In this document: positions 6,706 through 62,450 of the stretch, in pieces
How positions within the stretch are numbered: position 1 is the first letter of the stretch
Layout: each line of letters begins with the position of its first letter
Source of the DNA: Sphaerolaimus hirsutus
Taxonomy: Eukaryota > Nematoda > Chromadorea > Monhysterida > Sphaerolaimidae
Assembly: GCA_964036195.1 (NCBI GenBank)
Contig: OZ038459.1
Location: 8,553,206 to 8,617,205 of the forward strand
Reading direction: 5' to 3'
Length of the DNA: 64,000 nt
The notes under the pieces: model-generated
What the model saw: the letters and a program-made list of their open reading frames with translations, nothing else
The model's database searches: none
Told to the model about the DNA's origin: nothing
Program-made: the position numbers and the translations under genes

Positions 6706-6954
6706 AGCACTGCCAGACCCTGTAAAGTGTCAAATGTCATGCAAAGTATCAAAAGTCGTGTGAAATGCTGTGTAAAATGTCAAACGTACAATTTCCCAGG
6801 GTAGTTACATTACTTTTGGTGTTTTGAATGACAATACAGTGCATTTTACACATTACAGGACATGACATTACAGTATGTTTTACAGTGCATTTTACATGAC
6901 TTTTGACACTGCATGACATTTCGCATTTTACTGAGCATCTGGGAGTGGCACCAG
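6706..6954. mobile_element. Family F foldback element
   Basis: Left end CACTGCCAGACCCTGTAAAG, right end CATCTGGGAGTGGCACCAG. The arms consist of repeated TGTCAAATGTCATGCAAAG-type units in opposite orientation. Same family as the intronic copy at 51322-51501. Confidence 0.7.
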
Positions 6955-6961
6955 GTGACAG

Positions 6962-14292: not shown

Positions 14293-14838
14293 TATTTGCG
14301 TGTGGGTAGACTCTTTTTCGTTTTTTTAACGTTTGAAATTTAGCAACTAAAAACCATGCAGGCGCGGAAACATCGATCAGCTGCCTGTTGTTTTGATCTT
14401 TATGTGATGCATTTTCTCCCAACATTTGTGTTTTCAATGAAATGTGTTATCCTATTTCGAACAGGATTCCAAATTTGGATTTTCTTGGATCTCGTTGTCA
14501 TTCATTCTATTTCTCTTCTTTTCAAAATGCACCCACTAGGTACTGATGGACAGGGTTGGTTTTTGGATACAATTTGCTTTAAATTAACACTAAAATTTAT
14601 ATTTCTCAGGACAGTTGACACTTAACATGACACTTTACAGGGTTTGGGACTGCCTCCAGTTCTGCGAATAAACAGTTAGGCGCCTTTCACACTGTGAAAC
14701 TGTGACAACAAAAAATGCAATTTTTCAACCATTTTTGTTGGATGCATATGCAATATTTTACATGTGTGAAGCCTCAATCGATCATAACTTTATCAGCCCC
14801 ACTGCCTAAGACAAACATCAAATTATATACATTGTGTG

Positions 14839-31300: not shown

Positions 31301-34300
31301 TCGATTTACCTGAAATTTGGCATGTGAGTGCACCTAACTAGTGAGTATACTTCACTGTTTTTTCTCGCAGATATGGAACTTTATTCCGGATTTATGGAAC
31401 TTTTTCACTTTTTGATTTGTCGGCACATTTTGCAGTGTAAACGCCGCTTAAGATAAATAAGATGTGTTTCCCATAACAACCTTCTCTAAAGGGCGTATCT
31501 CTTAAGTCAAGGGCGGAATTGAAAGTGTCCCAATGTTTTTGAAACGTTTTGTTATGATATGCAAATGGACAAAAACTGTGTGAATTCATCCGAATTCGTG
31601 TGAATTTCATCCGAATGTCCTAAAAATGCCACATTTTTCCTAAATAAAAATGTTCGAACCGCCCTTGGAGTTCTGCCTTGGCGGAACTCAAAAACGTTCG
31701 AACCGCCTTTGAAAATTTTGAGTGTGCAGTGCGCCAATAATATGCTGTTGATGTTTGAATGAGTAATTTTGGTTGATCTGGCCAGTGATGTAAGAGCGTC
31801 ATTCTGCTGTGGCGCTATGCCCACGAAGAGCGTCGTGGCGCTTGGCGACAGGAACAAAATGCCTGGCGCTAGCGCCATAGCAAAACGGGCCATTGGTGCT
31901 GGTGGTCGCAAAAGTCATGGCTCTTTTTACATCACATCACAAATCATGGCATGCGGTCTGCCTATAACATGTACAACTCAGCTAGATGTCCGCCGGGTTT
32001 ACATGTCAGCCGAGCCTACCTCCATGAATCATGATAATGACACCATTCTACTTTTTTACATGTAAATAACCAAATTGTCCTGGAGAGTTATGACAAAAAA
32101 CAATATCAGGCCACAAGCAATATATGCTTCAAATTACATCATTCCAACCAAATATAGACCTTCACAAGGAAAAGCACAACCCAGACAATTTTTTAAAGGC
32201 AACGGCAGGGGAGGCGGAGTCACGATTCAGCGCAGGAGAACTTCTAGTGTGCACCATGGCCAAGAATGAGCTGGGTGTGGAATTTGTGGAGAGATTCTGT
32301 AAGCGCTCAGACTTGGTAGGTTGAAAACTCTATTTACCGTATTTCCTCGAAATACCCACAGGGGGTTTAGAGTGGACATTTTGAGGGGGGGGGGTTATTA
32401 TTTCGTAAGAAATTTTCGTGGAATTCATAGGAAGGAACACGCTTTTACATACCTAAAATCGGTAATAAATGTACTTAAAAAGGGTGAATTGTATGGTATT
32501 TTATACGGTATTTTAATTCTCTATGCCCGAAAGCACAGTGAAGTTTTAAAAGCTGCCCCGATTGCCCACCTGTCTGCATCGCTTAGAAAGTTTGTCGACC
32601 TGCGATGGCCAAAAATCTGCTTTGCTTTGTGGCTCAGATGTTCGGCTGCGGTCGCGTTGCCTCGGTGATCATTAGCCCAGAGCATTGCATATTGATAACG
32701 GACGATAATGATGGAAGAATTGTGAAAGTTGACGCTTCAGCGTTGCTCGCAAACAGTTTGCTCAGATTGCAGACCGGCGATGTGTGAGTAAACTTTTTCA
32801 ATACGTTTTCGATTTTCGATGTTAGATTCAGTTCACTCATGTTTTTTAAATACCGTATTACCTAGGGTTGGAAAAAAAAGTTTTTTTTTAACTCGATGTT
32901 GTTTTTTAAAAAAACGTTGTTTTTTTTTAAACGTTGTTTTTTTAAAAACAACGTTTTTTTTAAAAGCTCCCAGATATGACCTAGTGTCAACATATATAGG
33001 TATATCAGACACTGGCAATTAGGGTGTCAAATTTCCGTTTCCGTTTTCCGTTTCCGCCTTTCCGCAGGAAATTTTTTTACCTTTCCGTTTTCCGTTTTCC
33101 GGCAGCCGAAAAATTTTTACCTTTCCGTTTTCCGTTTTCCGGCAGCTGAAAAATTTTTACCTTTCCGTTTTCCGTTTTCCGGCAGCTGAAAATTTTTTAC
33201 GTTTCCGTTTTTCCGGCCCATTTTTCCGTTTTCCGGCTGAAAAATTTTTACCTTTCCGTTTCCGTTTTACCAGGCCATTTTTCCATTTTCAGGCTCGATT
33301 TTCAGTTTTCTGGCATTTTTCCATTGTTTTTCCAATCTGTATTTATCTTCAATTGGCTCATCCCATTGTGTTGTTTTTGTCTCTTGGAGCAGCATTGACA
33401 ACTGGGATTTCAGGGTCATTGAAACAGGTGCTGTGAACCCAATTGGGTCATATGCTGACACCAATAATTTATTCAAGTTTCGTCTGGTTGGTGTTGTGAT
33501 GCTGTCAATTTGCAATTTTGGTGTTGATATTGCCAGCATGTCCGTTCGGTGATTTTATTTCATGCCCATTACTGCGACAATGTTATTAACCTTTGGACTC
33601 CTGTCGTTTTCTGCTATTTCATCCATGACTGATCTGGAGTTTGACAGCCATTCCCTCATGTTCATAGAACATTGTTTAAATAAAGCTTTGACTTTGTAAT
33701 ATAGTTCTAAAGCTTCAACTTCATTCGTGACACTCATGATGAAGTTATTAATGTAAATGTTGTTTATTATCATTGCCAACTGGTTTTGTTCCCCTTCATT
33801 TTCTTCATATTCATTCATGTTGTTTATTGTCACATTTAAATGGTATTTTATGACTGCTCCCAAAATTGCTGGGCTGCAGACAAGTCCAAACAGTACGCAT
33901 TTAAAAAGAAGTACTATTAAGTTATTTTCAGTTACTGGTTTTGAGGCATCTTTCAGCCAGAAAAATTGTGTGTAGTCTCTAGCTTGGTCATGCAATCCTT
34001 TTTGCAAAAATGCCTTTTCAATATCGGCAATGAATGCTAGATTGCCTGCCCTGAACCTCAGGAGTAGGCCCAGTGCTAATGGTGTTGTAATTGGTCCTCT
34101 AAAAAGGCACTCGTTGAAACTGGGCTTACCTGACGACCCATTGTACACAATTCTGCATGATGTCGATTTGCCCGGTGTGATTACTGGCTGGTGTGGCAGG
34201 TAATGAATCCCCTTGTTGTCTGTTTTGTCATCACAGATCTCAATTATTCCCTTTTCTAGTTGGTCATCCAAAACTTTCTGGTATTGTTCGAATAAGTTTG

Positions 34301-37300
34301 GATCTTTGTTGAATCTTCTTATCAGTGATTTAAACTGCACCAAGGCTTCTGCTTTTCCAGTGGGCAGGTCACTGATACTCTCTTTATATGGCCAATCAAT
34401 ATAGTATTGTTTGTTGTTGTTGTTGAATTTTATGCTATTTATTATCATCTCCTCTGCAATGTTGTCATCAATTGCATAGGAGTCATCAGTGATTCCCACT
34501 GCTTCTAGACTGTGAAATTGTCGTAGTGTTTCCTTTCCTATGGCCACTATGGCTACTTTTTGATGATTATTGTTGGTTCAGTTAAGCTTGAACTACAAGT
34601 GAAGTTACAGGCATGATCCATAGTTGCAGAATGTACAGCTACCACAATCAAAGCCAAACAGGCAAACCTGCATGCAGGTTTTCCTTCTGCAAATTTGTCT
34701 ATTACCATGCTAATTTCACTTTATTTTTTTCCGTTTCCGTGAAAATTTTGCTTTCCGTTTTCCGGCATTTCATTTTTCCGTTTTCCGTTTTCCGACCGAC
34801 AATTTTTTTTTACCTTTCCGTTTTCCGTTTTCCGCTGAGTGAAATTTTTTTACCTTTCCGTTTTCCGGCAGAATTTTTTTTTTTACCTTTCCGTTTTCCG
34901 TTTTCCGTAAAGTGAAAAATTTTTACCTTTCCGTTTTCCGTTTTCCGTAAAAAAATTTTTTTGACACACTACTGGCAATACTCTGTGATGTTAAATATGA
35001 CCATATAATGGCTGTGGAGCCATGGGATAGCATTATAAGTGGTGATTTGTGTCAAACATATCCATTTTTCGTCGACATATTGTTCGTATATCGCCTTATA
35101 GTTGAATGTTTGTGACTTCAGGTAAAGTTTGGCACGGAATGGTGATCAAACAAGGTTATAAAAGGAGGTTGTTACTTTGGGAGTGAAGTTACACACTGTG
35201 GAGGTACATGGAAGCACATTACCTCAATATTATATATTACAGCAACATATGTCGGCTTATTCACCCATGGTAGCACATAGAAATGGATGTTTTGATACTA
35301 AAAATGCAACAAAACCAATGAAAACAACCACCAATGTCAATTTGTGTGTGAAATTGCGCGCTTGCGCGCAAAAATTTTGCAAAATACCTAGTGCTTAGTA
35401 CTAAAAATTTCGGCCGATGTTTTTTTAATAAAAAAAACATTTCGGACATCATGTTTTTTAAAAAAAAAAACGTTTTTTTTTTAAAAAACGTTTTAAAAAA
35501 AACATCGGCCAACCCTAGTATTACCCCATCCGTTGAATTAACCCCCTCAAAATACCCCCCTAAAATTTTGCTGCGGAAATGATAACCCCCCTCGAGTCGA
35601 AATAGCCCCACCCAAATTGAGTGTAAAGAGAATGTACACGACAAATACCGCAATTTGTGATCTGTATGATGCAGAACACACGTTGAAACCAATGAGTGAG
35701 TGACGTTAGGTCAGGGTTTATGCGTGAAATGAATGAAATATTTAAATGAATAGTTGTCACTGAATACAGGCAAATTTATACATGAAAATTCTTTTTTTTT
35801 TCATAAGTTTTGTTGTCACTTGGCTTGCACTTTCACTTAACACTTATTCAGTTGCAGTAATGGCACTGGGTGGAAATTGTATTCACATGAATCTTATATT
35901 TATGATATTTCCACAATTAATAGGATATTCCACAATTAATAACATGTTGAACTTGCGGTATGTCTAGCTTTGTCAGATGCACGATTTCGTGCAACTTGAA
36001 TTTTTACGTTTTCTCTGGTAGCAGGGTAATTGTCTCGGGAAAACGTAACGGTATTTCCGGAAAAAGTAAACGTAAGTATAAATACCTGGAATACCGGTGT
36101 ATTTCGGGTAAACGTAAACACGTTTTACCAACTCTGCCCACAACTGACGCCATACCATCACTACTGCGGACACCCCATGCAGAATGGAATACAGCGCATT
36201 TTTGGACGGAACTTCGGGCGAGCTTTGTGCTGTGCGCGTTCGCATGTCTAAGCTTTTGGACAGTTGCCGGCGTTTGCTGGACGCCGGCAGAAGTGTCCTA
36301 TGCGGCAAGGTTGTGGATGCTGATCCGGGCGGCGTGGTTACGGTGTCCATGACCGATGGCCACATTGTTCACTTGCAGGTAAGTGTTGTACAGGGGTTTA
36401 GTGGATTTGGACACCTCCTGGGGTTCATATAGGTAGTAAAATCTGTAGGGATAGTTTTAAAAAATTCTGGGGGGCGTTCACGGGGCCTCAATAGATACGT
36501 TTTTGTTCAATATATATGTATGTACATAAGATATAGAAGAAAAAAGTAATTAGAAAAACATAAAATTACTTTGTCTTAGTCGATAACGCGCGAGCAGGAC
36601 ACTTATTACGCACTTTCACCAAAAAAAATATTTTAAAAAGAAAAAGGAGTAGCCGAGTAAATACAACCGATAAAGAAAATAACGGTTTTTTCAATGACCC
36701 CTTTTTGAAAACAACGTTCCCAAATGTGGTTGTGAGATCCAGGGGTCTCCTAGATCTGCCCCCCCCCCCAAATCGGCCAGCTATCTATCTATCCCGGAGG
36801 CCGCTCAGCTATCTATCTATCCCGAGGCAAAATTTTTGGCTACTACCCCAAAAGACCCCCCCCCCCAAATCGCTCAGCTATCTATCTATCTGGAGCGGTT
36901 TTTGAGAAATTTTGCCCCAATTTTCGCTCAAAATCACTAATGTTCGCACCTTTTTATAGTTTTTCACCTTCAAAATCGTGTTTTCCGGCTATATACATGG
37001 TTATATACCTATTTTTAGCCATTTTATACCTACTTTTGGCTACTTTTAACTGATTATTAGCGATTTTTTCCCCTTTCTGCCTTCTTAACCTTGAAAAAGC
37101 CTATATATTGTGCCCCTGCCAGCCCCCCCCAAGCCCCCCCCCCAGCCCCCCCCCCCCAGAAAATTTTTCAGCTATCTATCCCTCCGGAGGAGCGATTTGC
37201 TATCTATCCAGCCCCTGCGAGGGCCAAAATCCTGGAGACCCCTGGTGAGATCACACTGGAGATTGATGTTTCACACTGCAGAAGTATGTGGGAGCGCATC

Positions 37301-40300: not shown

Positions 40301-43300
40301 CCGGCCAATCCCAATCCCAAAATCTCAAAAAACCCCAACCCTGATCCAGAAAATTCAATCCCATTTGAACCCTCATTGGTTTATGGCATTTTAATTGTCA
40401 AAGCTTCCATTTATGATGGCTACGCCATGTAATAATGAGGTGAAATGTGTTAGTGTAGTAAATATATAATTTCCCGCCACAGTGCTTCCATAATGTTGAA
40501 AACAAGGTCGATATTCTATATTTTTTCAAAATTTTCCATGTCGATGTTAAATATGAAAAATTAGTTGATATCCAATATTTGATACGATACATTGGCGCAC
40601 CACACACTCAAAATTTTCAAGGGTGGTTCGAACGTTTTTGAGTTCCGCCAAGGCAAAACTCCAAGGGCGGTTCTAACGGTTTGAGTTCGGCCAAAAGCAG
40701 TGTCAGGGGCGGAATTCGAACAAAGTCCGGACAAAATTCTGACGGATCCACCCAAGTTCAAACACTTTTTGGGCATTCGCTTGTTGTAACATATGCACGC
40801 CTAATGTTTCAAAAACATACGGACACTTTCAATTCCGCCCTTGACTTAAGAGATACGCCACTTAGAGAAGGTTGTTATGAGAAACACATCTTATTTATCT
40901 TGCCAAACACATTTGTAAAAATTTGAACTGAAAATTTGAGTGTGCCGTGCGACATTGTCCTAGTATTGGGGCATATGAAATATCTGAGCTATCATTTGTA
41001 ATCATTCAAATCGCTTCATTATAGTGATCGCCACAAAATAGTGATCATTTTTAGTGCTGAACCATCAAAATCGGTTGAGAATTCGTGGAAATGCTGTTCG
41101 GAAATTACAGCCACTAAGAAAGTAACCAAACTATCCCAAATGGTTTGAACGTTTTCCTGTTTACACACTGGAAAATGCTGAACTACAATATCTCAAGAAT
41201 GAGCAGTTTTTAAAAAAAATTTGGGTCTTCATTTTTGAAGATCATGTTCATACATGCTCATAAAAAATGTTTCATGAAGATGTATGAAAAACTGGATGAG
41301 ATCTGGATAAATTTACAGCAGTAGATTTTCTGCCAAACGCTGAATTGTTTTGCTGAAATGAAAGTGACCGGATACAATTTTTTCACAAGATGCTGAAATG
41401 TTGAATTCAGCATATGACCAAAAATGCTGGAAAATGATCTAAATCCATCCGAATTTGTCCGAATTCATACGGATGCTGAATGTCTGGACCCCAAAATGCT
41501 GGTCTAAAACCGTCCGAACAGCAATTTTTTAGTTCGGATTCGGCAGATGAAAACGTGTGTATGCCGAATATTTCGGCTTCAGTGTGCGTAGCGCCATTAG
41601 CGCCATGAGGCAAACCCATGACTATTTGGTTGGAACCCATTCCACAGTTGATTTTTCCCAACTAAATCATTATTTACTATTAGGTTGTCAACTAAGTAAC
41701 CTTAATTTTTTGCGTATGTGTGATCGCAAAAAATTAATGTTACTTAGTTGACAACCTAATATTTTACATGAAAATTTTGCATACGGATGCAAACGGCTGG
41801 ATGAAACAGCGATTTATATTCATCATTGGTAAAGTGGGACAGCCCCATGTGACAGAGTTACAGTGATGTGCTTAACACCTTACTGCCACCGTTTCCATTC
41901 TCTCAATTGTCTAACGCGGTCGCTAATATTTCAGCAAGAAATTGGCCAACTGAAGCAAAATACAGCGGCGATGCGCTTCCCGCAATACCTTCAGTCGTAC
42001 ATGTTCTGTTTGGGACCGACATCCAGCTACCCAGCCCTGCCGCAGCAAAGCCACGGCGCGCATTTTGATCAACCCTCGGTTTGCGGCAGGGATCTTGTCA
42101 GGAGTAGAAAAAAGGGGGGTTTGGGGGGGGGGGTTACCTCCCCCCCAAACCGCACAGCTATCTATCTATCCCGGAGGCCGCTCAGCTATCTATTTATCCC
42201 AGAGGCAAAATTTTGGGCTACTATCTCCTATGAACCCCCGATTCCCAAATCGGCCAGCTATCTATCTATCTGGAGCGATTTTTCAGAAATTACACCCTAC
42301 TTTTAAGTCAAAATCATATTTAGCTATCTATCCCTCCGGAGGAACGATTTGCTGTGTATCCAACCCCCCGGATGGCCCGCACAGGCCCGTCAAAATCTAG
42401 CCTAACCCTGGATCTTGTAGATTTTGACAGTTTGCAGGGATAGATACCGTATTAAAAAATTTTCAATTACAGAGAGAGCGGGTGAAAAGCTTCTGATTTG
42501 ATCGCCCTCACTGAATCGCAATTGTATCGTAATTCGTAAGTGCTAATGAATTTCATTGTTTTCAGACACCCAGCCAGTTAGGCATTTTCGATGAGCACGT
42601 ACCACAAGCAGTTCCACCTGACCAGCCAGTCGTGCATACTAATGGTTAAACCTCAATGGCCCTACACACAGTAGTTGACAACGACACCAAATGTCAATTT
42701 TTTCTACTGATCCCAATTCAAAGGTTGCTACAGAGTAACACTACGCATTATTGTATACACATACAGGGACATAGCCAGGATTTTTGAGCGAGGGGGGGCG
42801 GATTGTATGGGGGGCCAGGCCTCCTACGCACAAATGACCGGCGCGCACAAACGCCTGGCACGCACAAAATGAAAGTCCGGTACGCACAAACGCCCGGTAA
42901 GCACAAAACTGTAGCTTTGTGCGTGCCAGTCGTTTGTGCGCGCCGGGCGTTTGTGCGTACAGGTGCGGGGCCTACGGGGGGTCCGCCGCCCACCCCTAAA
43001 ATTCCGCTCCTGATGTGAGGGAATGGTGCCATTCGTAGGCGCCACGCCATGGCGCCACTGGCGTTGGCATTGGCGTGAAAACGCGCTGTCTTTGTATGTA
43101 TTTTACATACATATTAAGCGACGTCGATACCTCTAGTACATTAGCATAGGATTTGAGGCCGCCGAGTCAAGCAAACCAAAAATACCTGCTGTGTGAACGT
43201 AAAATGCGCGCTTGCGCGCAAATTTTTTGCACAACATCCTTGAAAATGTATCAAAAATCGCCTCTTCTGGCCATTTTCCGTGTATCACCCGGGAAGGGGG

Positions 43301-46300: not shown

Positions 46301-49300
46301 CAATGGAAAAATGCCATGTTTTTTCAAGCTGCTTGATTTTAGCATTAAAATCTGATTTTTTAAAAATTGCCCAAGTATGGTCTAGAGCAAAAAAGATGTA
46401 AATATGTATGTACCATAAATCTTTGATCAAGTCCCCTCAGGGGTATCTTGAATTTTGACCCTCCGAGTGGTTGGATAGATAGCAAATCGCTCCTCCGGAG
46501 GGATAGATAGCTGAAAAATTTTCTGGGGGGGGTTGGGGGGGGGTTTGGGGGGGGGGGTTGTGGTGGTTCGATATATAGGCTTTTTCGGGGCATAGAAGGA
46601 AGAAAAGGGAGAAAAATCGCTAAAAGTAGGTGTAAAATAGCTCAAAATGGGCATACAAGAGCATATAGTACTTAAAATAGCTGAAAATAGGCAGTTAGAC
46701 GCATGAACCAGTGATTTTGGAGGTGAAAATCTATATATAGGTATGAAAAATAGCGATTTTGAGCAAAATTTAGGGTATAGTTTCTGAAAAATCGCTCCAG
46801 ATAGGTAGATAGCTGGGCGATTTGGGGGGGGGGTTTAGGGGGTAGTAGCCCAAAATTTTGCCTCCGGGATAGATAGATAGCTGAGCGGCCTCTGGGATAG
46901 ATAGATAGCTGGGCGGTTTGGGGGGGGGTAACCCCCCCCCAACCCCCCCCATTCGAGACCCCTGAGTCCCCTCCCTTGAATAACTCCCTCCCTCGATAAT
47001 TGCAAATATCCCAAAAGTCAAGCCCCTCACAGGACCCACTGCCTCATGATCACGTGAGCAAAATTCCAGAAAGCAGATACTTTTCTCTCGCATCTGATTT
47101 GATCAAAGCTGAACCACACTTCATAAAATGGTGTGATCAAACCAGCCATTTATGTGCTCCTGGAAATAGTCAAGCATTTACTCAAGAGACTGCACCTATT
47201 CAGAATCTTAGTGGTTGGTTTGACCCTGTATCTGCAGACATGTAAATCTGCCCAACATGTAGATCCAGTCAACATGTATTTGTACCCATTCAACATGTAG
47301 ACTTGCTGTACATGCATTGACGGCATACATGTCAAGCATGGGGGATACATCACCAGTGCGCTTGTCAAGTGGGTTTAATCATACCCTCCCTGCAGCTGAT
47401 AGCCATATCACATTTTATCTTGACATTGCAGTGAAATATGCTGACATTCTCACATCCTAATCTGACCAGTAAAGAAACAAATGACATCTTTAAAATGAAT
47501 CACATGGTATCCAAATCAGATTACACTGACAGAACAACCTGTTTGATTTGGTGCCCACTCAAATCATGAATTTTAAAAGTATGTTCTCACTTATATCAGT
47601 ATCTTATGTAATTGTAGCTTTGTCATTTTGCCAATAACCAGTTCAGATACCACTTTAAAATTACTATTGTATCTGGGTCTGCACTTTAAAAAAAAAGAAT
47701 TCTCCCATCTGGTTTCCATCTTGCCTTTTCTGCAAGAAACTAATTTACATTATATGCCGTGGTAAAATGAACCAGTGACAATCATTTCACTACACCATTT
47801 TGGACTATTATCGTGAGTTTTTTAAACTATTTTGTGACCCAGCATTCATTTTTGGCTCTGACCAGCATCCATTTTTGGCCAATTGACTAATTTCCTTTTT
47901 TAAGTGTGTTTGAGCATTTTAGCGTCTCACGTTTACACTCTGTTCTATGAATACTTGTTCAGAGTTACATCAGCATATTTCTATGAAATTTGATATGGCT
48001 ATCTTGGCTGCGGGAAAGAGAGGTGGTGATCGTCAAACCCACTTGACATGTAAGTCCGCGGGTAATGTACAATGCCCACTGGACATGTACGCACCTAATA
48101 CATGTCCAGCGGGTCTACATGTCGACCGGGTAGAAATACATGTTGAACGGTTCTTCATGTCGGGCGGGTTTACATGTCAACGAAGCTTACGTTGTTGATT
48201 GTGTGCTTGCCGTCTTTTTTTATGTCCAATTAATCACGCTGACGATTAGATAGATAAGTTATCGACCGAGTACCGACGCCATCAAATCTGGTTTATCCCA
48301 CAGATTATCAGACTGTGCCAGACGACCCGTCTGATGTAAAATCAGCTGCTGCCGCTCAATCGCATTCAAAATCATCAACTGACCAAATCAATGCTGTGCC
48401 GCAGACTGAAGAATTTTTCTTCACCTACAACATTGCCCATGCGCTGCAAATTGAAAACGCTGACAAATATGTTGGTAGTAGTATCACAAAATGTGATCAG
48501 AGTACAAGCGAGGTTTGTGGCCTCGGTGTTCATTGCTCCTTGCCTTGGATCGTTGGAGATAAGGACGTATCCATGGGGGGGCAAGGGGCTGCAGCCGCCC
48601 CCCCTTCCCGGGGTGAGAGCTTAAAATTCCATGGAACTGGATCCGTATAAATTTTCATGGTGCTGTTTAAAAAATTTTGCGCGCAAGCGTGCATTTTTCC
48701 GCCACACTATATTATCACTATCAATCTCTGTTGTCTGGAACCCATATAATATGCCCTCAGTAGTATGACTGTCGCTGTATATCTATGCAGGGGCGGCACC
48801 CCAATCGGTCATCTTTCCCGGAGGCTGCTGCTCAGCTATCTTTTTGCCCCAAGGCAAAGTTTTTTGGCTACTATCCCCTGAGCCCCCCTCCCAATCGCTC
48901 AGCTATCTATCTATGTGGAACAATTTTTGACTGATTATTCCCCAATTTTTGATAAAGTAGCTAAATTTTGTTCCATTTTTCCAATTTTTTCCTTCAAATT
49001 TTCACTATTTTCGGCTATACACATGTTTATATACCTATTTTGGGCTATTTTAAACCTATTTTTAGCGATTTTCTTCCACTTTCTGCCTGATATACCTTGA
49101 AAACGCCTATATATTGCGTCATACCGCAACTGTAGGATAAAATTTACGGGGGGCTGAGCCCCCCCCCGTTCGTCAGGCTCCGTAAACATACAGCCCCCCG
49201 CTTGAAAATCCTGGATACGTTTCTGGTTGGGGAGTGTTCACCCTTGCAACTCTCCCCACTAATTTACCCCCAGAGGGCCCTGTGCCGGTGCTCATCTGTA

Positions 49301-52300
49301 CCCCGTGCTCATCCTGTGCTGCTCGGTGCTTATAAACAGTGCCATGGGTAACCTAGATTTTGATACTCCGGGGGTTGGATAGATAGCAAATCGCTCCTCC
49401 CTCCAGAGGGATAGATAGCTGAAAAAAATGTGGGGGGAGGTTGCAGGGTTCAATATAGGTATAGGCTTTTTCAAGGTGAGGAAGGAATAAAAGGGCGAAA
49501 AATTGCTACAACTAGGTGAAAATTAACTCATAATAGGTATATAAGAAAATATAGTACTAAAAATAGTACTGAGCAGTAGATGAGCACTGTTCTTTGTCCT
49601 GGAGTGTTTGTTGCGCAGAAAATATGTTTATTGCTGTTGTACGAACTTGTCACCGCACTCGCTCCGCATTCATATTTACTTTGGCTGATTTGGGTGCATG
49701 GGATATCCGCCTTCTAACGTTTCAGATGAGTACTTCGAGTTTCCATCGATCGAGTTCCAGCTTGCCTCACCCGCCTCAATATGTTGCTCAAGTTACATCG
49801 GCTGCAGTGGCGTACACCCCGCCTTTGTTTCAACCAAATATGGGCGGTTTTTTGCAGAGGCCCCAATACCTGCCGCGACCGTTCGCTCTGCAGCAACAGC
49901 CTGCTCACATGGTGTGGATGTTACAGCAGCCAGTTTTCGCACCCTGTAAAACGTCAGGCAAATTTGTCAGGCTCAGGGTAATATGTAAAATGCTCGATGA
50001 AATGCATTTTCGCGGGTATTTTTGATTTTTGACACCAGTTCATTCGCTGTTTTTTTCGCATTTGATCTTTCTCATTTTTATGCGTGGTCTGCGCTGTTCC
50101 TGCACCCTGTGTATTATTCAGCTGCGCATGTGTTTATCTACGTTCTGTCGCAGATGCACGGCGTGCCGATCGTCCAGTTGCAATACGGCACTCAGCAACA
50201 TTTCGTCCCCCCAGTCGCGTCGCTACAACAACCTATGGTATTGTTGTTTTGTTCAAACATTGATAAAATGTGTCCATAGTTTGCAAAAAATGGTGCGCTG
50301 AATGAGTGTTCGTTTTCAGACATTCAACACTGCGGGGCCGGGCAATTTCGCCACGCCGCAGTTGGTTTACGAGTCGGGTGTGATTCCAAATTGTTGGTCT
50401 CGTTATAACTGAAATCCTTGGCGACGGCGACATTGCAATCGATGTGGATATTTTTGCATACAAATTCAGGCGGGCCATCGGCACCTGCCTACTTCGTGCC
50501 ACACGGACAGCTCGTACACAATCAGCCACTGGCGCCGCCCCTGGCGCATGCCGCTTGCACTGGTGCCAATCCCATACCCTGTAAAATTCCCTGTAAAATG
50601 TCAAATGTCACGCAAAGTGTCAAAAATCATGCAAAATGCCCTGCAAAATGGTATTCTTGCCATTTGCAAAACGTATGCTTGCCATTTTGCAGGGCATTTT
50701 ACATGATTTTTGACACTTTGCATGACATTTGACATTTAACAGGGCATTTTACAGGGTCTGGGACTCCCCCCTGGTGAGGAAAATAATGGTGATACTATCG
50801 CCTATGAAACTCTCCCGGAACCTGTTCGTTTGTGTTTTTTTCACTTTTCTTGTAAATTGCGTGTAATACGCGCTCTTTTCAGTGTGTTGTGGCCGAGGCT
50901 GGTGAGGATATTACGACTGCATCGAATCAGATGAATGCTGAAGCAGCGTTCACATCGTCGTGCAGCAGCTATGGCACGCCCGGCGAAGTGGTTGTCAAGC
51001 CTCCAGCAAATCAAATTGTTTTAATTTCAGCCTCCTTTCGCGGACAATTTGGACTCGTCGCACTGCAGCCGCCGCCGACGTCGGACGAGTCGCATTCGGG
51101 GCGTCCTGCAGACAACACCGTAACCGAAAGTGATCCCGGTATCGGTCCAAACCGCAGCAGTCCCGGGGGCTTTGAGATCATCCCTATTTGTTCGAGGTGC
51201 GACTGCACTCTTCATGTTTTTTTTCTTCATTTGTAATGACAACTGTTTTCGCAGCTCGACAGAATCATCATCTGCTCCTTTCGATCTGCCTAACCCTAGT
51301 CAGGGCATTCTGCACAACCAGGTGCCACTCCCAGACCCTGTAAAATGTCATGTGAAAAGTCAAATACCGCATGCAAAGTATCAAAAGTCATGTAAAATTC
51401 CCTGTAAAATGGCAAACTTCGTTAGGGCATTTTTCATGACTTTTGACACTTTGCATGACATTTGACGTCCGTTTGACAAGAATCTGGGATAGTGCACCCA
51501 GGAAATCACTTCCAAACCCGCATTCACCCTGAGTGAACCGAAATGCCACATGGAGACGGTTTCGCCAGTTCTCAAAGTGGCCCCTGTGACAGTGGATCAA
51601 TTGCCGACTGCCAACTTGGGTTCTCGCGGACGCGGCAGAATGTCGAGAGAGAACCGAAAAACGCGCTACAGCAAAACCGCTGCCCCTTTGAAGCCTCTCA
51701 TCGAGGAGGATCGAATTGATAATCGTTCAGCGGGTTTGTTCAATCTTTTGCTAATTATCAAAATTTCATGTCCACCGTGGCCGAACAAATGTGTACCGTA
51801 TATCCTCGAATAGATCCCAGGTGAGTTATTATTTCGTCAGAAGTTTTGGAGGGGGAGTTATTCATAGGGAGTAGTTATTGTTTCCTCGGAACTTACACTT
51901 TATTCATTGTGTGAATGCATTGCACCAACTCATCTAATCCAGTACTACACAGTGAAAGAACAACCAAGCAAGGTTCAAACAAACAAATTTGTGTTCATGA
52001 TCTGAATCATTCAAATACACATTGGATACATAGACCAAATACCCAGAGGGGGGGGGTATTCAAGGGGAGGAGTTATTTTTTCCTCATCGGGCCAACAGGG
52101 GGGATTGTTCAAGTGGGAGGTCTTATTCAAGGATATACGGTAGACATTCACTGTTTCCAGAGAGCATTGATCGCTGCCAGCCGGCCAGTCGCTCGGAAGC
52201 TGCGAGTCACAGTTGCGTGAACAGTTTCGTACATGTCGATTCATCTGATTTTCTTCAGTTGACTGACGGCGCGCGAGTTGAAATTGTCAACTGGATTGCT

Positions 52301-52399
52301 GGTCAGGTGTTGAAGTTTAACCGATATGCAAATGATGTGCCCTTCCCTGAACACACCAACATGATAATGAGAACAGCAAAAGGACTTTCCCAGCTGTGA
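19125..52399 (+). CDS. Unrecognised 21-exon gene (~1,200 codons)
   Basis: Exons: 19125-19304, 32199-32315, 32587-32783, 36183-36378, 37601-37851, 37920-38007, 41935-42096, 42566-42649, 43534-43770, 45522-45671, 45939-46112, 47033-47213, 48304-48512, 49726-49977, 50154-50237, 50320-50377, 50470-50823 (interrupted), 50883-51196, 51255-51321, 51502-51733, 52161-52399. Phases match at every join except exon 8/9, where an in-frame TAA and an element intervene. I do not recognise the family. The N-terminal third shows repeated beta-rich stretches such as VLSVHSQYILVDSNRGRW and VASVIISPEHCILITDDNDG. The C-terminal half is Ser/Pro/Gln-rich with a basic RGRGRMSRENRKTRYSK segment, then a final ordered stretch (ARVEIVNWIAGQVLKFNRYA). 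Exons 10 and 18 look like paralogous copies. Coding is GC3-rich. Tudor- or RNA-associated function is a guess from texture only. Confidence 0.8.
19324..19573. mobile_element. Family M element in intron 1
   Basis: TA-flanked; left CCGTATTTCCTCAAAATA, right TTCGAGGAAATACGG. Confidence 0.85.
19590..19900. mobile_element. Family T foldback (AAGGGCGGAATTC-type)
   Basis: Ends resemble GCACGGCACACTCGAATTTT and TTTTGAGTGTCAGTGCGCC. The interior has repeated AAACGTTCGAACCGCCCTTG and GGCGGAATT motifs. Relatives are at 31440-31737 and 40592-40958. Confidence 0.65.
20055..20290. mobile_element. Family R, left part (AAGCGGCGTTTACACTGC end)
   Basis: Starts AAGCGGCGTTTACACTGC, with repeats of AACCGACAACG and CCTCGTTCAACAGAAA and the pair TGTGCCGACAA. 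The inverted end of a relative is at 31430-31450 (GCAGTGTAAACGCCGCTT). Confidence 0.5.
20345..21160. repeat. Tandem array N (GTGAATTACCTACC..CCTCGAATTATCCCCCC)
   Basis: About 20 units of 35-42 bp built from CGCGTGAATTACCTACC, GCCTCGAATTATC and a C-run of 5-13. Its text overlaps the TIR text of family M (CCTCGAATTACCCCCC). The array continues at 21470-21531, 21951-22088 and 22494-22650 between inserted elements. Confidence 0.88.
21160..21350. mobile_element. Family L copy, degraded ends
   Basis: Shares ATGAACCAAAAATTATA, ACATCACATTTAGTATG and a CATACTAAGTGTG inverted end with 28396-28586. Confidence 0.6.
21540..21942. mobile_element. Family O: hAT-like element with GATATTTGATATTC array
   Basis: Left end TAGGGTTCTAATGATAT, right end ATATATCATTTGTACCCTA. 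Perfect TSD CCCACATG (21532-21539, 21943-21950) inside array N. The interior is a palindromic AT-rich array of TTGATATTTGATATT. Confidence 0.9.
22097..22485. mobile_element. Family E: 389-bp near-perfect palindrome, 8-bp TSD
   Basis: TSD GAATTACT (22089-22096, 22486-22493). Arms of about 190 bp carry GATACGCACAT, CTGTTACGCACATTTGCCCG and two inverted TTTTTCACTTGACAC / CACTCATATCTGAAAATCAC modules each. Near-identity of the arms predicts a stable cruciform or hairpin. Confidence 0.93.
22735..22935. mobile_element. Family L copy
   Basis: Starts TGTATACTCAGCAGGCATCA and contains ATGAACCAAAAATTATA; the right end TGCATACTTTGTGGTTCACC is degraded. Confidence 0.65.
23435..23853. mobile_element. Family M element in intron 1
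   Basis: TA-flanked; left CCGTATTTTCTCAAAATACC, degraded right end ATTCAAAGTAATATATGG. Interior poly-G runs and the TTATTTCACCAG phrase. Confidence 0.75.
24188..24932. mobile_element. Foldback element with TTACACTTACACTT array
   Basis: Left end CAGAGTTGTGAAAGTG, right end ACAACTCTG. Subterminal arrays of TTTACACTTACACTT lie near both ends. The flanks agree only loosely, so the TSD is uncertain. An isolated similar end (CCAGAGTTGTCAAAAGTA) lies at about 61819, and a variant lies just upstream of exon 4 (36030-36130). Confidence 0.65.
25190..25564. mobile_element. Family I element
   Basis: Starts CAGGGGTCTCCTAGGGG, ends TCCTGGAGACCCCTG; perfect TSD GTGTAAAA (25182-25189, 25565-25572). Confidence 0.93.
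25573..26283. other. Intronic sequence, no feature recognised
   Basis: No repeat family or coding signal that I can support. Confidence 0.4.
26292..26879. mobile_element. Family B: hAT-like element with TTTTCCG array
   Basis: Starts TAGGGTGTCAAA, ends TTTTTGACACCATA. TSD GTTATTCC / GTCATTCC (7 of 8). The interior is a degenerate array of CCGTTTTCCG around a short core containing ACATGCATGCAGGTTTTC. Confidence 0.9.
27417..28392. mobile_element. Family K palindrome, right end truncated
   Basis: Left end AACACCTTCCCAGTCACG beside TA. Arms meet near 27950 (TGACATCATAATGACATCAT). Pairs include GTCCGGCACCCGCTGATT against AATCAGCGGGTGCCGGAC. The outermost right-arm segment is missing where the family-L element begins. 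Confidence 0.8.
28396..28586. mobile_element. Family L element
   Basis: TIRs TATACTCGGCGGAC and GTCCGCCGAGTATA. Interior has TCACACTTAGTATGG and ATGAACCAAAAATTAT. Confidence 0.8.
28601..29030. mobile_element. TA-flanked 430-bp palindromic element
   Basis: Left AAGCCGGAATTACAGCTCAG, right CTGAGCTGTAATTCCGGCTT, each beside TA (28599-28600, 29031-29032). Arms of about 200 bp include CGTTTGACGTGAAATGATGA and its complement. Confidence 0.88.
29225..29875. mobile_element. Family H: hAT-like element (uninterrupted copy)
   Basis: Starts TAGGGTTGGAAAAAAAACG, ends CATCGGCCAACCCTA; perfect TSD GACACACT (29217-29224, 29876-29883). Subterminal AAACGTTTTTTTTAAA-type palindromes. It provides the empty site that defines the family-B insertion at 33020. 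Confidence 0.93.
30285..30322. mobile_element. Family M right-end remnant
   Basis: Poly-G run then GGTATTTCGAGGAAATACGG. Confidence 0.55.
30393..30430. repeat. 38-bp hairpin
   Basis: TGTCGGTTTGGGTCTCGTT followed directly by AACGAGACCCGAACCGACA: 19-bp arms with one mismatch and no loop. It may be the centre of a larger degraded foldback element. Confidence 0.75.
30660..30977. mobile_element. Family M / F mixed remnant
   Basis: Family-M phrases (GGGGGGTTATTATTTTGACAG; right end ATAATTTGAGGTAATACAG) enclose family-F text (TTTACACTTTACAGGGTC). Confidence 0.5.
31058..31450. mobile_element. Family R element, right end preserved
   Basis: Repeats of TGCCGACAA and TGTCGTCA; right end GCAGTGTAAACGCCGCTT. 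Confidence 0.5.
31451..31737. mobile_element. Family T foldback copy
   Basis: TGTCCTAAAAATGCC and AAACGTTCGAACCGCC motifs; ends GAGTGTGCAGTGCGCCA. Confidence 0.5.
31775..31940. mobile_element. Family G-like remnant
   Basis: CCAGTGATGTAAGAGCG at the left, TGGCTCTTTTTACATCAC at the right, GGCGCT motifs between. Confidence 0.5.
32199..32315 (+). CDS. Exon 2 of the 21-exon gene
   Basis: 39 codons, phase 0/0, after the tract ATTTTTTAAAG. Encodes SAGELLVCTMAKNELGVEF and ends CKRSDL before gtaggt. A strong Kozak-like CACCATGG inside is an alternative start. Confidence 0.65.
32337..32508. mobile_element. Family M element in intron 2
   Basis: Left CCGTATTTCCTCGAAATACC; poly-G and TTATTTCGTAAG inside; degraded right end TTTTATACGG. 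Confidence 0.55.
32587..32783 (+). CDS. Exon 3 of the 21-exon gene
   Basis: Acceptor after TGTCTGCATCGCTTAG; 197 nt, phase 0 to 2, donor GATGT|gtgagt. Encodes AKNLLCFVAQMFGCGRVAS and a beta-rich continuation. Confidence 0.8.
33020..34971. mobile_element. Family B element with internal BEL/Pao fragment
   Basis: Starts TAGGGTGTCAAATTTCCG, ends TTTTTTTGACACACTA; perfect TSD CTGGCAAT (33012-33019, 34972-34979). Arrays of TTTCCGTTTTCCG at 33030-33300 and 34725-34960 enclose retroelement sequence and the family core (AACCTGCATGCAGGTTTT). Confidence 0.93.
33267..34547 (-). pseudogene. BEL/Pao retrotransposon pol fragment (reverse transcriptase)
   Basis: A minus-strand frame of about 330 residues (34547-33555) shows BEL/Pao RT features in order: YLPHQPVITPGKSTSCRIVY, then FNECLFRGPITTPLALGLL, then IADIEKAFLQKGL with the first catalytic Asp region, then FFWLKD. 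The YxDD-like box reads INNFIMSV, so the usual catalytic aspartates are missing. The frame stops once at 33555-33557 where the family normally has a conserved Trp (GMK then stop then N), and reopens to 33267 with the downstream SAYDPIGFTAPV motif typical of Pao. No LTR, gag, protease, RNase H or integrase is visible. It is broken and lies wholly between the arrays of a family-B element. Confidence 0.9.
35526..35605. mobile_element. Family M right remainder, split by family H
   Basis: GTTGAATTAACCCCCTC, CAAAATACCCCCC and TGCGGAAATGATAACCC continue the M element interrupted at 32862. Confidence 0.6.
35606..36182. other. Intron 3 remainder with a degraded foldback
   Basis: 36030-36130 holds AACGTAACGGTATTTCCGG and its inverted counterpart near GTGTATTTCGGGTAAACG; otherwise nothing recognised. 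Confidence 0.4.
36183..36378 (+). CDS. Exon 4 of the 21-exon gene
   Basis: 196 nt, phase 2 to 0, acceptor ACCCCATGCAG, donor CAG|gtaagt. Encodes MEYSAFLDGTSGELCAVRV and GGVVTVSMTDGHIVHLQ. Confidence 0.85.
36379..36659. mobile_element. Intron 4 start with family L-like text
   Basis: 36575-36655 contains TCGATAACGCGCGAGCAGG and AAAAGGAGTAGCCGAGTA, the complement of the tail of the 5231-5827 block. Confidence 0.45.
36660..37563. mobile_element. Diverged family H element interrupted by family I
   Basis: Right part matches family H (AAATTGCGCGCTTGCG, TTTTGCAAAATACCTAGTG) and ends AACTTCGGCCATCCCAA. Confidence 0.65.
36740..37244. mobile_element. Family I element nested in family H
   Basis: Starts CAGGGGTCTCCTAGATC, ends GGAGACCCCTG; perfect TSD GTGAGATC (36732-36739, 37245-37252). 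Confidence 0.93.
37601..37851 (+). CDS. Exon 5 of the 21-exon gene
   Basis: 251 nt, phase 0 to 2, acceptor TTTTCTACAG, donor GATCC|gtcagt. Encodes FGDVCLCVTRPNEEMQLVRP. Confidence 0.85.
37920..38007 (+). CDS. Exon 6 of the 21-exon gene
   Basis: 88 nt, phase 2 to 0, acceptor GTTTTTGTAG, donor CAA|gtacgt. Encodes VEIVVGNDSEVMHLAPLPLA. Confidence 0.85.
38407..38964. mobile_element. Family B element, reverse orientation
   Basis: Starts TAGGGTGTCAAC, ends GTTGACACCCTA; perfect TSD ACTATAAC (38399-38406, 38965-38972). Arrays of GGAAAACGGAAACGG. The mirror arm of family U (41017-41029) preserves the empty site. Confidence 0.95.
38985..39377. mobile_element. Family H remnant, reverse orientation
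   Basis: CTATCCCATGGCTCCACAGC and the end GTTTTTTTCCATCCCTA are complements of family-H interior and terminus. Confidence 0.65.
39380..39928. mobile_element. Family C element, reverse orientation, left end lost
   Basis: GGGTATCGGGTTCGGG arrays; right end GTTCCCAACCCTA. Its centre (TGTAGTGTATCTATCACAAG) is the complement of the interior of the 17242-19023 copy. Confidence 0.75.
39957..40374. mobile_element. Family A element
   Basis: Starts TAGGGTTTAAATGGGATCCC, ends ATCCCATTTGAACCCTC; perfect TSD ATTGGTTT (39949-39956, 40375-40382). Interior GATCCC arrays around about 190 bp of other sequence. Confidence 0.9.
40500..40590. mobile_element. Family O remnant
   Basis: AAGGTCGATATTCTATATT and TTGATATCCAATATTTGATA match the family-O right half. 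Confidence 0.5.
40592..40958. mobile_element. Family T foldback copy
   Basis: Left GGCGCACCACACACTCAAAA, right TTTTGAGTGTGCCGTGCG; inner GAACGTTTTTGAGTTCCGCC repeats. Flanks share ACATT on both sides (40586-40590 and after 40952), a possible short TSD. Confidence 0.65.
41680..41759. mobile_element. 80-bp mariner-like mini-palindrome
   Basis: TTAGGTTGTCAACTAAGTAA and its complement, about 34-bp arms with a short loop, each flanked by TA (41678-41679, 41760-41761). The (T)TAGGTTG.CAACTAAGT pattern resembles mariner termini. Confidence 0.85.
41935..42096 (+). CDS. Exon 7 of the 21-exon gene
   Basis: 54 codons, phase 0/0, acceptor CTAATATTTCAG. Encodes FPQYLQSYMFCLGPTSSYPA and ends CGRDL. Its donor GATCTT|gt lies inside the TSD of the family-I element that follows. 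Confidence 0.85.
42099..42410. mobile_element. Family I element at exon 7 splice donor
   Basis: Starts CAGGAGTAGAAAAAAGGGG, ends CTAGCCTAACCC and TG; perfect TSD GATCTTGT (42091-42098, 42411-42418). Interior CAGCTATCTATCTATCCCGG units. Confidence 0.9.
42566..42649 (+). CDS. Exon 8 of the 21-exon gene (ends in TAA)
   Basis: Acceptor CATTGTTTTCAG, phase 0. Encodes TPSQLGIFDEHVPQAVPPDQ and reaches TAA at 42647-42649. With the family-V insertion removed, the same frame continues after TAA as ACC TCA ATG GCC CAT GAT into exon 9. A GT at 42645 could be a weak donor but gives the wrong phase. Confidence 0.6.
   Translation, partial: TPSQLGIFDEHVPQAVPPDQPVVHTNG
42663..43532. mobile_element. Family V element splitting exon 8/9 sequence
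   Basis: TIRs TACACACAGTAGTTGACAAC and GTTGTCAACTGGTGTGTGTA; flanking GGCCC on both sides (42658-42662, 43533-43537) is a possible 5-bp TSD. Arms continue through GACACCAAATGTCAA. A family-P element is nested inside. Confidence 0.75.
42764..43334. mobile_element. Family P: hAT-like element, GC-rich interior
   Basis: Starts CAGGGACATAGCCAGG, ends CCTGGCTATGTCCTTG; perfect TSD TACACATA (42756-42763, 43335-43342). It contains a GTACGCACAAACGCC palindrome (42808-42985) and a family-G remnant (43020-43085). Confidence 0.92.
43534..43770 (+). CDS. Exon 9 of the 21-exon gene
   Basis: 79 codons open to donor GAG|gttagt, phase 0. Encodes HDYRSKFCAFWSN, then KNKKKIETKKGEKDPERRWF. The AG at its start is formed by the element terminus plus the flank; the true acceptor is uncertain. 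Confidence 0.65.
43787..43870. mobile_element. Family A left end, truncated
   Basis: TAGGGTTCAAACGGGATCAA begins 16 bp into intron 9, then a few GGGATTG units. A possible partner end CCCCATTTCAACCCTA is at 44237-44252, but the flanks do not match. Confidence 0.6.
43880..44660. repeat. Family X: ACATGTAGACCC inverted arrays with AAAGTGA stem-loops
   Basis: CAACATGTAGACCCGC and its complement recur in both orientations around CACTTTTTACTTTTC and AAAAGTGACGAGTGAAAAG hairpins. Smaller relatives are at 47230-47380 and 48035-48190. Confidence 0.65.
44787..45000. mobile_element. Family H left part
   Basis: TAGGGATGGAAAATGTG, AAAAAACGTG, AAAGCTCCCAGAAATGG and ATATAATGGCTGTGGAGCC match family H; the right end is missing. 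Confidence 0.55.
45090..45235. repeat. GATGAGCACC inverted repeat cluster
   Basis: GGGTGCTCATTTTTACCGGG and TGATGAGCACCGGGTGGG face each other; a similar cluster is at 49275-49345 and 49570-49590. Confidence 0.5.
45522..45671 (+). CDS. Exon 10 of the 21-exon gene
   Basis: 50 codons, phase 0/0, acceptor GCTTATTTTCAG, donor TCG|gtcagt. Encodes IVTTAKQINDVKSIESSYSD then YCTPNEGSVSP, resembling exon 18. Confidence 0.85.
45939..46112 (+). CDS. Exon 11 of the 21-exon gene
   Basis: 58 codons, phase 0/0, acceptor CATACTATAG, donor GTG|gtttgt. Starts PVMDVCDVGSNGQSAEPHLD; acidic and Ser-rich. Confidence 0.8.
46438..46964. mobile_element. Family I element, reverse orientation
   Basis: Starts CAGGGGTATCTTG, ends TTCGAGACCCCTG; perfect TSD AGTCCCCT (46430-46437, 46965-46972). 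Confidence 0.93.
47033..47213 (+). CDS. Exon 12 of the 21-exon gene
   Basis: 181 nt, phase 0 to 1, acceptor CCCCTCACAG, donor AGTG|gttggt. Encodes KIPESRYFSLASDLIKAEPH and ends TAPIQNLS. The join to exon 13 is in phase. Confidence 0.75.
47230..47380. repeat. Family X array
   Basis: CAACATGTAGATCC, CAACATGTAGACTTG and GCATACATGTCAAGC in opposite orientations, beginning 16 bp inside intron 12. Confidence 0.6.
48035..48190. mobile_element. Family X element
   Basis: CACTTGACATGTAAGTCCG at the left is mirrored by GCGGGTTTACATGTCAACG at the right; interior ACATGTCCAGCGGGTCTACA. Confidence 0.65.
48304..48512 (+). CDS. Exon 13 of the 21-exon gene
   Basis: 209 nt, phase 1 to 0, acceptor TTTATCCCACAG, donor GAG|gtttgt. 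Encodes YQTVPDDPSDVKSAAAAQSH and ends CDQSTSE. Confidence 0.85.
48560..49225. mobile_element. Family P hAT-like element
   Basis: Starts TAAGGACGTATCCATGGGG, ends ATCCTGGATACGTTTCTG; TSD GTTGGAGA / GTTGGGGA (7 of 8). Contains family-I-like AGCTATCTATCTATG text. The fragment at window position 1 is the same family. Confidence 0.85.
49365..49570. mobile_element. Family I remnant, reverse orientation
   Basis: GGTTGGATAGATAGCAAATC and GAGGGATAGATAGCTG match family I; the terminus is degraded. Confidence 0.55.
49726..49977 (+). CDS. Exon 14 of the 21-exon gene
   Basis: 84 codons, phase 0/0, acceptor TAACGTTTCAG, donor AGG|gtaata. Pro/Gln/Ser-rich, for example FALQQQPAHMVWMLQQPVF. Confidence 0.85.
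50154..50237 (+). CDS. Exon 15 of the 21-exon gene
   Basis: 28 codons, phase 0/0: MHGVPIVQLQYGTQQHFVPP and VASLQQPM, donor ATG|gtattg. Confidence 0.8.
50320..50377 (+). CDS. Exon 16 of the 21-exon gene
   Basis: 58 nt, phase 0 to 1: TFNTAGPGNFATPQLVYES, donor TCGG|gtgtga. Read on without splicing it meets TGA 24 bp later. Confidence 0.75.
50470..50823 (+). CDS. Exon 17 of the 21-exon gene, interrupted by a family F element
   Basis: Coding parts are 50470-50565 (GGPSAPAYFVPHGQLVHNQP and on to AACTG) and 50777-50823 (EENNGDTIAYETLPEP), joined in frame if the element plus one repeat copy is removed (143 nt, phase 1 to 0). Flanking exons fit only with this model. Unspliced, the insertion (211 bp net) shifts frame and meets TGA near its end. 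Confidence 0.75.
50566..50770. mobile_element. Family F element inside exon 17
   Basis: Flanked by CTGGTG (50560-50565, 50771-50776). Ends CCAATCCCATACCCTG and CAGGGTCTGGGACTCCCCC. Arms of CAAATGTCACGCAAAGTGTC type form a hairpin around 50655. Confidence 0.85.
50883..51196 (+). CDS. Exon 18 of the 21-exon gene
   Basis: 314 nt, phase 0 to 2, acceptor CGCTCTTTTCAG, donor TTCGAG|gtgcga. DITTASNQMNAEAAFTSSCS then SYGTPGEVVVKP parallels exon 10. An internal TTGTTTTAATTTCAG might be an alternative acceptor. Confidence 0.8.
51255..51321 (+). CDS. Exon 19 of the 21-exon gene
   Basis: 67 nt, phase 2 to 0: STESSSAPFDLPNPSQGIL then HNQ, donor AACCAG|gtgcca supplied by flank plus element. Confidence 0.85.
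51322..51501. mobile_element. Intron 19 = family F element (introner-like)
   Basis: The 180-bp intron is the element: after the donor, GTGCCACTCCCAGACCCTG; before the acceptor, AATCTGGGATAGTGCACCCAG. The arms carry inverted CAAAAGTCATG and ATGACTTTTGACACTTTGC. CCAGG flanks both sides, so donor G and acceptor AG come from the target sequence. Splicing joins HNQ to EITSKP in frame. Confidence 0.8.
51502..51733 (+). CDS. Exon 20 of the 21-exon gene
   Basis: 232 nt, phase 0 to 1, donor GCGG|gtttgt. Encodes EITSKPAFTLSEPKCHMETV and the basic RGRGRMSRENRKTRYSK. Confidence 0.85.
51796..52140. mobile_element. Family M element filling intron 20
   Basis: TA-flanked; left CCGTATATCCTCGAATAG, right TTATTCAAGGATATACGG. 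Interior TTATTTCGTCAGAAGTTTTG. It makes up most of the 427-bp intron. Confidence 0.88.
52161..52399 (+). CDS. Exon 21 of the 21-exon gene (stop codon)
   Basis: 239 nt from acceptor CTGTTTCCAG, phase 1, to TGA at 52397-52399. Encodes DFLQLTDGARVEIVNWIAGQ and ends RTAKGLSQL. Confidence 0.88.
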
Positions 52400-61055: not shown

Positions 61056-62450
61056 GAGTCTGCATCATCTTGCATCACAGGTATTTCACATCAAGCATGA
61101 AGTGCTCCACTTCACATCAGGAACTGCTTCACTTCACATCAAATTCTCACATCAAACTTCTGCCTCATTTCGCAGAATATACTGCATCATCTCGCATCAA
61201 TTAGTGCCCCGTTTCACAGTAAAACTTTCACATCAAAAAATGCATCGATTCACATCATCAAATTGAACACCAATTAACATGACAGCACCGCCGATTTGCA
61301 AAAGATTTACCTTATTTTTCATTTTGCATTATGAGATTAACATCACCGCATACGCACAACTAAGCGGAACACTTTGCGGATTTGCCGCCCACACCCCTGC
61401 AAAAATTTTGAATGCTCTTTTTGCATGAGGCCACGTTTGATCTAAGTACTTGAGTAACAGATGTAGCTCTGTGGGAAACAGGCGTAATTAATGGCATGCG
61501 GTAACTATCAGAGGCAAAATTTGCCTCATGATATCTATTGCATCAGGTTTCCACCATCAGTTTGAAAAAGGAATAAATATTTTGGTTCAATTCATGATGA
61601 TGGTGTTGAAAATGGTTTCTCATTGAGGAATAAGCCTTTGATATATGTCAAAAGTTGTTCAAAGATTAGAGTTCTTCAAAGTACTGAACTTTTTCACCAG
61701 TATATGTAACTGTAATTGATCCCTGCCAATTTTTTTAGTATTGTCGTACTTCATTTGAGTACTTACCACAGCTGTATTGATACATATCAAATGTTGTATT
61801 GTTTTTATTTATTTACCAGAGTTGTCAAAAGTACATACACTATTATGCACTGTACTCACTCGACCTTGATTATTTACCTAAGTGGCATTCACATTGTCAT
61901 CACATCGAAACTGGTGGCAATCCCAAGCCCTGTAAAGTGTAAAGTAAAGTGTCAAATGTAAAGTCAAATGCAAAGTAAAGTGTCAAATGTAAAGTCAAAT
62001 GCAAAGTAAAGTGTCAAATGTAAAGTCAAATGCAAAGTAAACTGTCAATTGTCATGCAAAGTTCAGTAATAAAATTTTTTCTTTTTTGTTTTGATTGACA
62101 CTTTACTTTGCATTTAACTTTACATTTGACACTTTACTTTACACTTTACAGGGCTTGGGATTGCCCCCAAATATCTTATGTTACACATTATGCATTCTTG
62201 ATGTGAAGTGAAGCACTCAGCCCTGTTGCAAAAAATGGCTGAAATGAAAAATGTGAATCAATGCACTTTTTGATGTGAAAGTTTTACTGTGAAATGGAGC
62301 AGTAGTTGATGCGAATCGCGGCACCTTTTCATGCGAAGTAGTGCACTTCTGTGATGCGAAATTGTTGTTGTGAACTGAGGCACTATTTGATGCGAAACAT
62401 AGCACTAACACCTGATGCGAAACAACGTTGATGCGAAATGGTCTGGACTC
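61056..62450. mobile_element. Family W: foldback element with 9-bp TSD (MULE-like)
   Basis: Starts GAGTCTGCATCATC, ends TGATGCGAAATGGTC and TGGACTC; TSD TCTTAGCTG (61047-61055, 62451-62459). The interior consists of TTCACATCA and TGATGCGAA arrays in opposite orientation. A 9-bp TSD fits Mutator-like elements (inference). A family-F element lies in the middle. Confidence 0.85.
61912..62169. mobile_element. Family F element nested in family W
   Basis: Left CTGGTGGCAATCCCAAGCCC, right GGGCTTGGGATTGCCCCC. Arms are arrays of GTAAAGTCAAATGCAAAGT in opposite orientation around 62070. Confidence 0.85.

Follow-up and report, generated by a model that had tools for sequence, protein, structure and literature searches.

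The window analysed here (the whole stretch of 64,000 nucleotides, numbered from its first letter) contains a plus-strand gene model whose 3′ part comprises exons at 50883-51196, 51255-51321 (ending HNQ), 51502-51733 (beginning EITSKP), and 52161-52399, the last including the stop codon. Joined, these four give a 283-residue open tail with a terminal stop; none of 2000 dinucleotide shuffles was open in any frame. A Pfam search with six protein pieces, those of the host protein included, gave nothing above the cut-offs, a comparison of the tail with viral contigs confirmed nothing, and no homologue of the host protein was found at E <= 10 among 6896 and among 800 candidates. Since the host protein has no homologue in either set, intron gain at this site is not demonstrable. 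A CTATCTATC-rich repeat recurs, by eye, in introns of the gene model (36770-37210, 42140-42360, 46440-46940, and 48790-49120). An Rfam search of the window gave no match at the gathering score, and a tRNA search of it found none.

Between the HNQ and EITSKP exons lies a proposed GT...AG intron of 180 bp (51322-51501, plus strand, read directly from the sequence), which starts GTGCCACTCCCAGACCCTG and ends TCTGGGATAGTGCACCCAG. The abutting exon ends are CACAACCAG on the left and GAAATCACT on the right (exon letters there: GAAATC). An earlier note on this DNA had claimed that removing the segment joins HNQ to EITSKP in frame and that reading through it meets a stop near its right end. Both claims hold: one of the three frames stays open through the joined exons (51255-51321 plus 51502-51733; 299 nt), with HNQ leading into EITSKP, and the unspliced segment presents two in-frame stops, TGA at 51463-51465 and TAG at 51490-51492. 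Frame restoration by itself is weak evidence for an intron: of the 283 deletions of 180 nt possible in the region, 154 restore the same frame too, and when the two joined exons were shuffled 2000 times, that frame stayed open in 83 cases. Skipping of the 67-nt exon 51255-51321, considered as an alternative, would break the frame.

As also noted earlier, CCAGG is present on both sides, at 51318-51322 and again at 51498-51502; of 63,815 window positions, 194 (0.3%) have an identical 5-mer 180 nt away. Because of this repeat, the borders at this locus taken alone are ambiguous by up to two bases. By matrix scoring, the donor at 51322 has the top score (0.74) of the 14 GTs in 51256-51501, no alternative there scoring above it, within a range of -1.32 to 8.59 for the donors of 10 other usable modelled introns (the intron starting at 37854 was left out). 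It is without the +4 to +6 consensus. An in-frame donor at 51340 is weaker (-2.27), and its use would add six residues. Among 10 AGs, the acceptor at 51501 comes second; its pyrimidine tract is poor (-1.11). There are two branch-point-like TTGAC sequences, by motif match only: one at 51473-51477, whose A (51476) lies 25 nt before the end of the intron, and another with its A at 51465, 36 nt before that end.

The 180 nt are predicted to fold, as RNA, with -69.7 kcal/mol (z -9.0; none of 200 shuffles reached this stability). The minimum-energy structure pairs the donor with the repeat on the acceptor side, which could either bring the splice sites together or hide them. Complementarity between the first and last 30 nt was matched by 36 of 500 shuffles; for 11 other modelled introns, 190 to 500 of 500 shuffles did at least as well.

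The segment was previously said to coincide with an element of a repeat family, F, and this agrees with the present delimitation: a fold-back element at 51322-51498, its borders assuming a CWG duplication, plus a 3-bp target copy at 51499-51501. The left TIR (GTGCCACTCCCAGA, 51322-51335) is the apparent source of the donor GT, the right TIR is TCTGGGATAGTGCACC (51483-51498), and the interior folds back on itself. The left target copy, CAG, forms the last exon bases (51319-51321); the right one, also CAG (51499-51501), is the apparent source of the acceptor AG.

Four complete family-F copies are present in the window, at 6706, 50563, 51322, and 61914. By blastn, the 51322 element matches 50600-50775 (E 2.9e-28) and, more weakly, 6708-6956, 14601-14652, 15659-15770, and 61913-62064. 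An nhmmer profile of the ends found 11 strong ends (E <= 1.1e-11), the same 11 ends that had built it. The copy at 50563-50770 has fold-back arms of 97 nt, is flanked by direct CTG repeats (50560-50562 and 50771-50773), and lies inside the modelled intron 50378-50882. The copy at 61914-62167 has arms alike at 70 of 71 positions and flanks CTG and CAA, so that its duplication is not clean; it looks young, and direct repeats about 31 bp long lie in its interior. The copy at 6706-6951 has a CAG right flank and a degenerate left end. These last two are outside the exons modelled here, and all three sister copies lie outside the 51322 intron, as the earlier note had them. Its motif TGGCACCAG, given there as a bounding motif, is actually the right end of the 6706-6951 copy; the 51322 copy ends AGTGCACCCAG. 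Its reading of the segment as a candidate introner is supported in part: an introner is defined by several introns made from one family, and of the four complete family-F copies in the window one (51322) is a proposed intron end to end.

Further single family-F ends are found at about 14656-14657 and 15777-15778, and a match ending near 30905-30923 has an end too degraded for use. A stretch at 49930-50040, which covers the 3′ end of exon 49726-49977 and runs into the following intron, may be an older family-F relic: its local alignment score to family F is 36, against at most 30 for 1000 shuffles and at most 34 for 196 control windows; CCAGTT flanks it at 49930 and 50035, and the nhmmer E-value is only 0.22. 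The end motif was also found at 2 isolated loci in viral contigs and at 10 in bacterial genomes. None of these matches the window at E 1e-5, and their matches to two element queries are 13-26 nt long; they are taken as chance. A 24-base inner motif had no matches in viral contigs.

The size of the target duplication decides where the splice sites come from. Read from outside inwards, with a hyphen between flank and element, the ends are CAG-GTGCCA and CTG-GGTGCA at 51322; CTG-GTGCCA and CAG-GGGGGA at 50563; and CTG-GTGGCA and TTG-GGGGCA at 61914; single ends are CTG-GTGCCA (6706, right), CTG-GAGGCA (about 14657), and CCG-GGGGCT (about 15778). CWG flanks 7 of the 10 readable family-F ends, at 5 of 6 sites, the paired ends of a copy not being independent and one of the 11 ends having been dropped as unreadable; the background is 2.8% of window positions. 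The trinucleotide is a direct repeat at 51322 (CAG and CAG), at 50563 (CTG and CTG), and at a cousin fold-back element of another sequence family (2763-2945, plus strand; CTG and CTG, with ends GTGCCAG and GGGCCAG), as would be expected of a target duplication, unlike a longer inverted repeat. The cousin was a post hoc find of an inverted-repeat scan, which accepted 12 of 14 matching end bases and any identical flanking trinucleotide; CWG was not enriched among the resulting 37 pairs with identical flanking trinucleotides (one CAG, one CTG), and the 51322 and 50563 copies are absent from its CAG and CTG pairs. An inverted-repeat pair at 13483-13899 is flanked by CAG, with 12 of 14 end bases matching. 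Other duplications considered were CCAG or CCAGG at 51322 and CTGGTG at 50563, each of which suits its own locus but not the ends taken together. An 8-bp duplication of the kind made by hAT-type elements, to which maize Ds belongs, was sought by eye at 51322 and none was seen.

The target duplication is thus most likely the 3-bp CWG, clean at 51322 and 50563 and not so at 61914 or at 6706. Since CWG recurs across the copies, the element itself would supply the donor GT, as its first two bases, and the target would supply the acceptor AG. The previous derivation of the acceptor from the target copy is retained; that of the donor, from a target G plus an element TG, gives way to an element GT, given the 3-bp CWG of the sister copies.

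The two ends of an element are not equivalent. One begins GT and the other GG in all four elements with both ends readable (51322, 50563, 61914, and the 2763 cousin), so that the asymmetry is common to two sequence families; at 61914, position 2 is the sole difference between the ends within their first 14 bases. This may distinguish the transposon's left end from its right, without being an adaptation to splicing. Only one of four insertion configurations can form GT...AG, since the GT end must be upstream and CAG must be on the coding strand. The exonic copy at 51322 alone has it; the other three have CTG beside the GT end. With just one exonic copy, its configuration could be due to chance.

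By its target duplication, and by GGG at one end of related copies, the element is probably a NuwaI-like MITE. NuwaI elements are PIF/Harbinger-like (PHIS superfamily), with 5′-CWG-3′ duplications and TIRs of 12-61 bp that usually begin GGG, and were found in 16 animal genomes, in animals only, according to Han et al. (2015, PMC4482050). An autonomous partner would be expected to encode a DDE transposase and a Myb/SANT protein. The CWG duplication is shared by the copies here (clean at 51322, 50563, and the 2763 cousin), and GGG is found at the right ends of 50563, 61914, 15778, and 2763. By contrast, the left ends here have GTG and the right end of 51322 has GGT; the fold-back arms (97 nt at 50563) exceed the NuwaI TIR range; and there is no transposase among the six protein pieces given to Pfam. 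Given the longer arms and the lack of a transposase in those pieces, membership is likely but not certain. The animal-only distribution of NuwaI has a parallel in the window, which also has a BEL/Pao-type fragment with animals among its named relatives. This open retrotransposon fragment (33558-34577, minus strand) has 33 related proteins, the best at 39% identity, with a Pfam RVT_1 match below cut-off; where an organism is named for these, it is mostly an animal, and one record carries the label of a bacterial metagenome bin.

Aligned with gaps, the arms of the 51322 copy disagree at 8 of 70 positions; elsewhere, 1 of 71 (61914), 12 of 97 (50563), and 13 of 81 (6706) differ. The 51322 insertion is probably not new, to the extent that 61914 can serve as the one reference copy for age and arms are near-identical at insertion. 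That the downstream exons keep their frame despite these diverged arms argues for removal of the element from the message.

The best explanation, and on balance a probable one, is that a MITE inserted into a coding exon and is removed exactly by the spliceosome. A non-autonomous fold-back MITE of the CWG-duplicating, NuwaI-like group would have entered the exon at CCAGG, oriented so that its GT end lay upstream and the coding strand read CAG. The product would be CAG-GTGCCA...CACC CAG-G (hyphens here marking splice junctions), with the element terminus as 5′ splice site and the duplicated target as 3′ splice site. Exact excision by the spliceosome would then leave the original HNQ-EITSKP frame, and the target as it was before insertion, because the donor is the element's first two bases and the acceptor the duplicated target's last two. 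From the sequence, it is very likely that a CWG-type MITE inserted into a coding exon, and likely that the spliceosome removes it at 51322 and 51501; splicing of the segment, an originally intronless site, and mobilisation by a NuwaI-like transposase are inferred. The introner mechanism of the earlier note is upheld to the extent that an exonic element would supply one splice site and its target copy the other, with the frame restored. The segment is therefore described as a probable transposon-derived intron; as an introner it is a candidate, because one intron is seen here.

A rival reading is that the insertion is disruptive: the allele seen here, or a gene in decay, keeps the MITE unspliced, and the protein ends after 47 element codons. 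Borders of GT...AG form would then be found anyway, since the GT element end and the CAG duplication produce them with or without splicing, and no homologue among the 6896 and 800 candidates shows conservation of the host gene. Against this, the flanking exons keep one continuous frame, while the 51322 arms (62 of 70 alike) are more diverged than those of the young 61914 copy (70 of 71). Simple disruption is unlikely.

Removal might also proceed by another route. Inverted repeats are the trigger of SOS splicing, in which the hairpin is cut from the mRNA independently of the spliceosome and RTCB joins the ends, so that GT and AG would be incidental; because the element is a hairpin, and a strong one by the folding energy given above, this is a live rival. 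The process has been described for transposon-carrying animal mRNAs (PMC13247085). The GT...AG borders, a donor that is the best of 14, and the restored frame are, however, spliceosome requirements, and the arms are imperfect (62 of 70); SOS splicing seems quite improbable here. There is even less to recommend a MITE that entered an older intron, the rest of which then disappeared, a course of events considered very unlikely: a MITE does lie inside a larger intron nearby (50563-50770 within 50378-50882), but at 51322 the exon ends abut the element ends with no intron sequence between them, and it is precisely these borders that the direct CAG repeat spans.

If the preferred reading, spliceosomal removal of an exonic MITE, is correct, it bears on the long-standing question of the origin of new introns: removal of an exonic transposon as an intron is a known route to them, seldom reported in animals. 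CAG-G is the classical proto-splice site, and intron birth would here be tied to a group of transposons with a 3-bp target (CAG/CTG) identical to the exon side of a splice site. It can be suggested, tentatively and as a possibility that may well prove wrong, that CWG-duplicating NuwaI-like MITEs are a ready-made class of animal intron-makers. About a quarter of their exonic insertion configurations would be spliceable at once, as CAG-GT...CAG-G, because of the CAG-G target and the one-base asymmetry of the ends (GT vs. GG). The genome should in that case hold many such introns, with predictable orientation. Any animal genome that has CWG-duplicating elements would allow a test of the orientation expected to survive in exons.

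That DNA transposons make introners is an established finding (Gozashti et al., 2022, PMC9860276). Across 3,325 genomes, that survey reports just two introner-bearing groups when animals and land plants are taken together, both of them animal, names copepods among the bearers, and gives family sizes of 5 to >2,000 copies per genome; 'Harbinger' was not found in it, and another paper, on fungi, has 'introner' and one 'Harbinger' (PMC8476143). Among the literature matches listed, no paper had both 'introner' and 'NuwaI', which is not proof of absence in print. As in these introners, a short non-autonomous TIR element with a target duplication would form the intron here, although theirs have 5 to >2,000 copies and one intron is seen here. 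The symmetrical stwintrons and sister introns of the Hypoxylaceae likewise have terminal inverted repeats and a possible double-stranded RNA, but are without flanking duplications, from which their authors excluded DNA transposition (PMC8469720); direct repeats are present here. SOS splicing also removes a DNA transposon from animal mRNA, but without the spliceosome, which the GT...AG borders here fit (PMC13247085). Maize Ds is an older precedent, judging from titles cited in PMC3260210: an exonic transposon is removed from the message like an intron, in plant mutant alleles as opposed to a gene model with an intact frame. A likeness in the division of the splice sites is in Figure 2C of PMC9860276, where the donor comes from the element and the acceptor from the duplicated target, with a 4-bp duplication and no TIR in place of the 3 bp (CWG) and TIRs found here.
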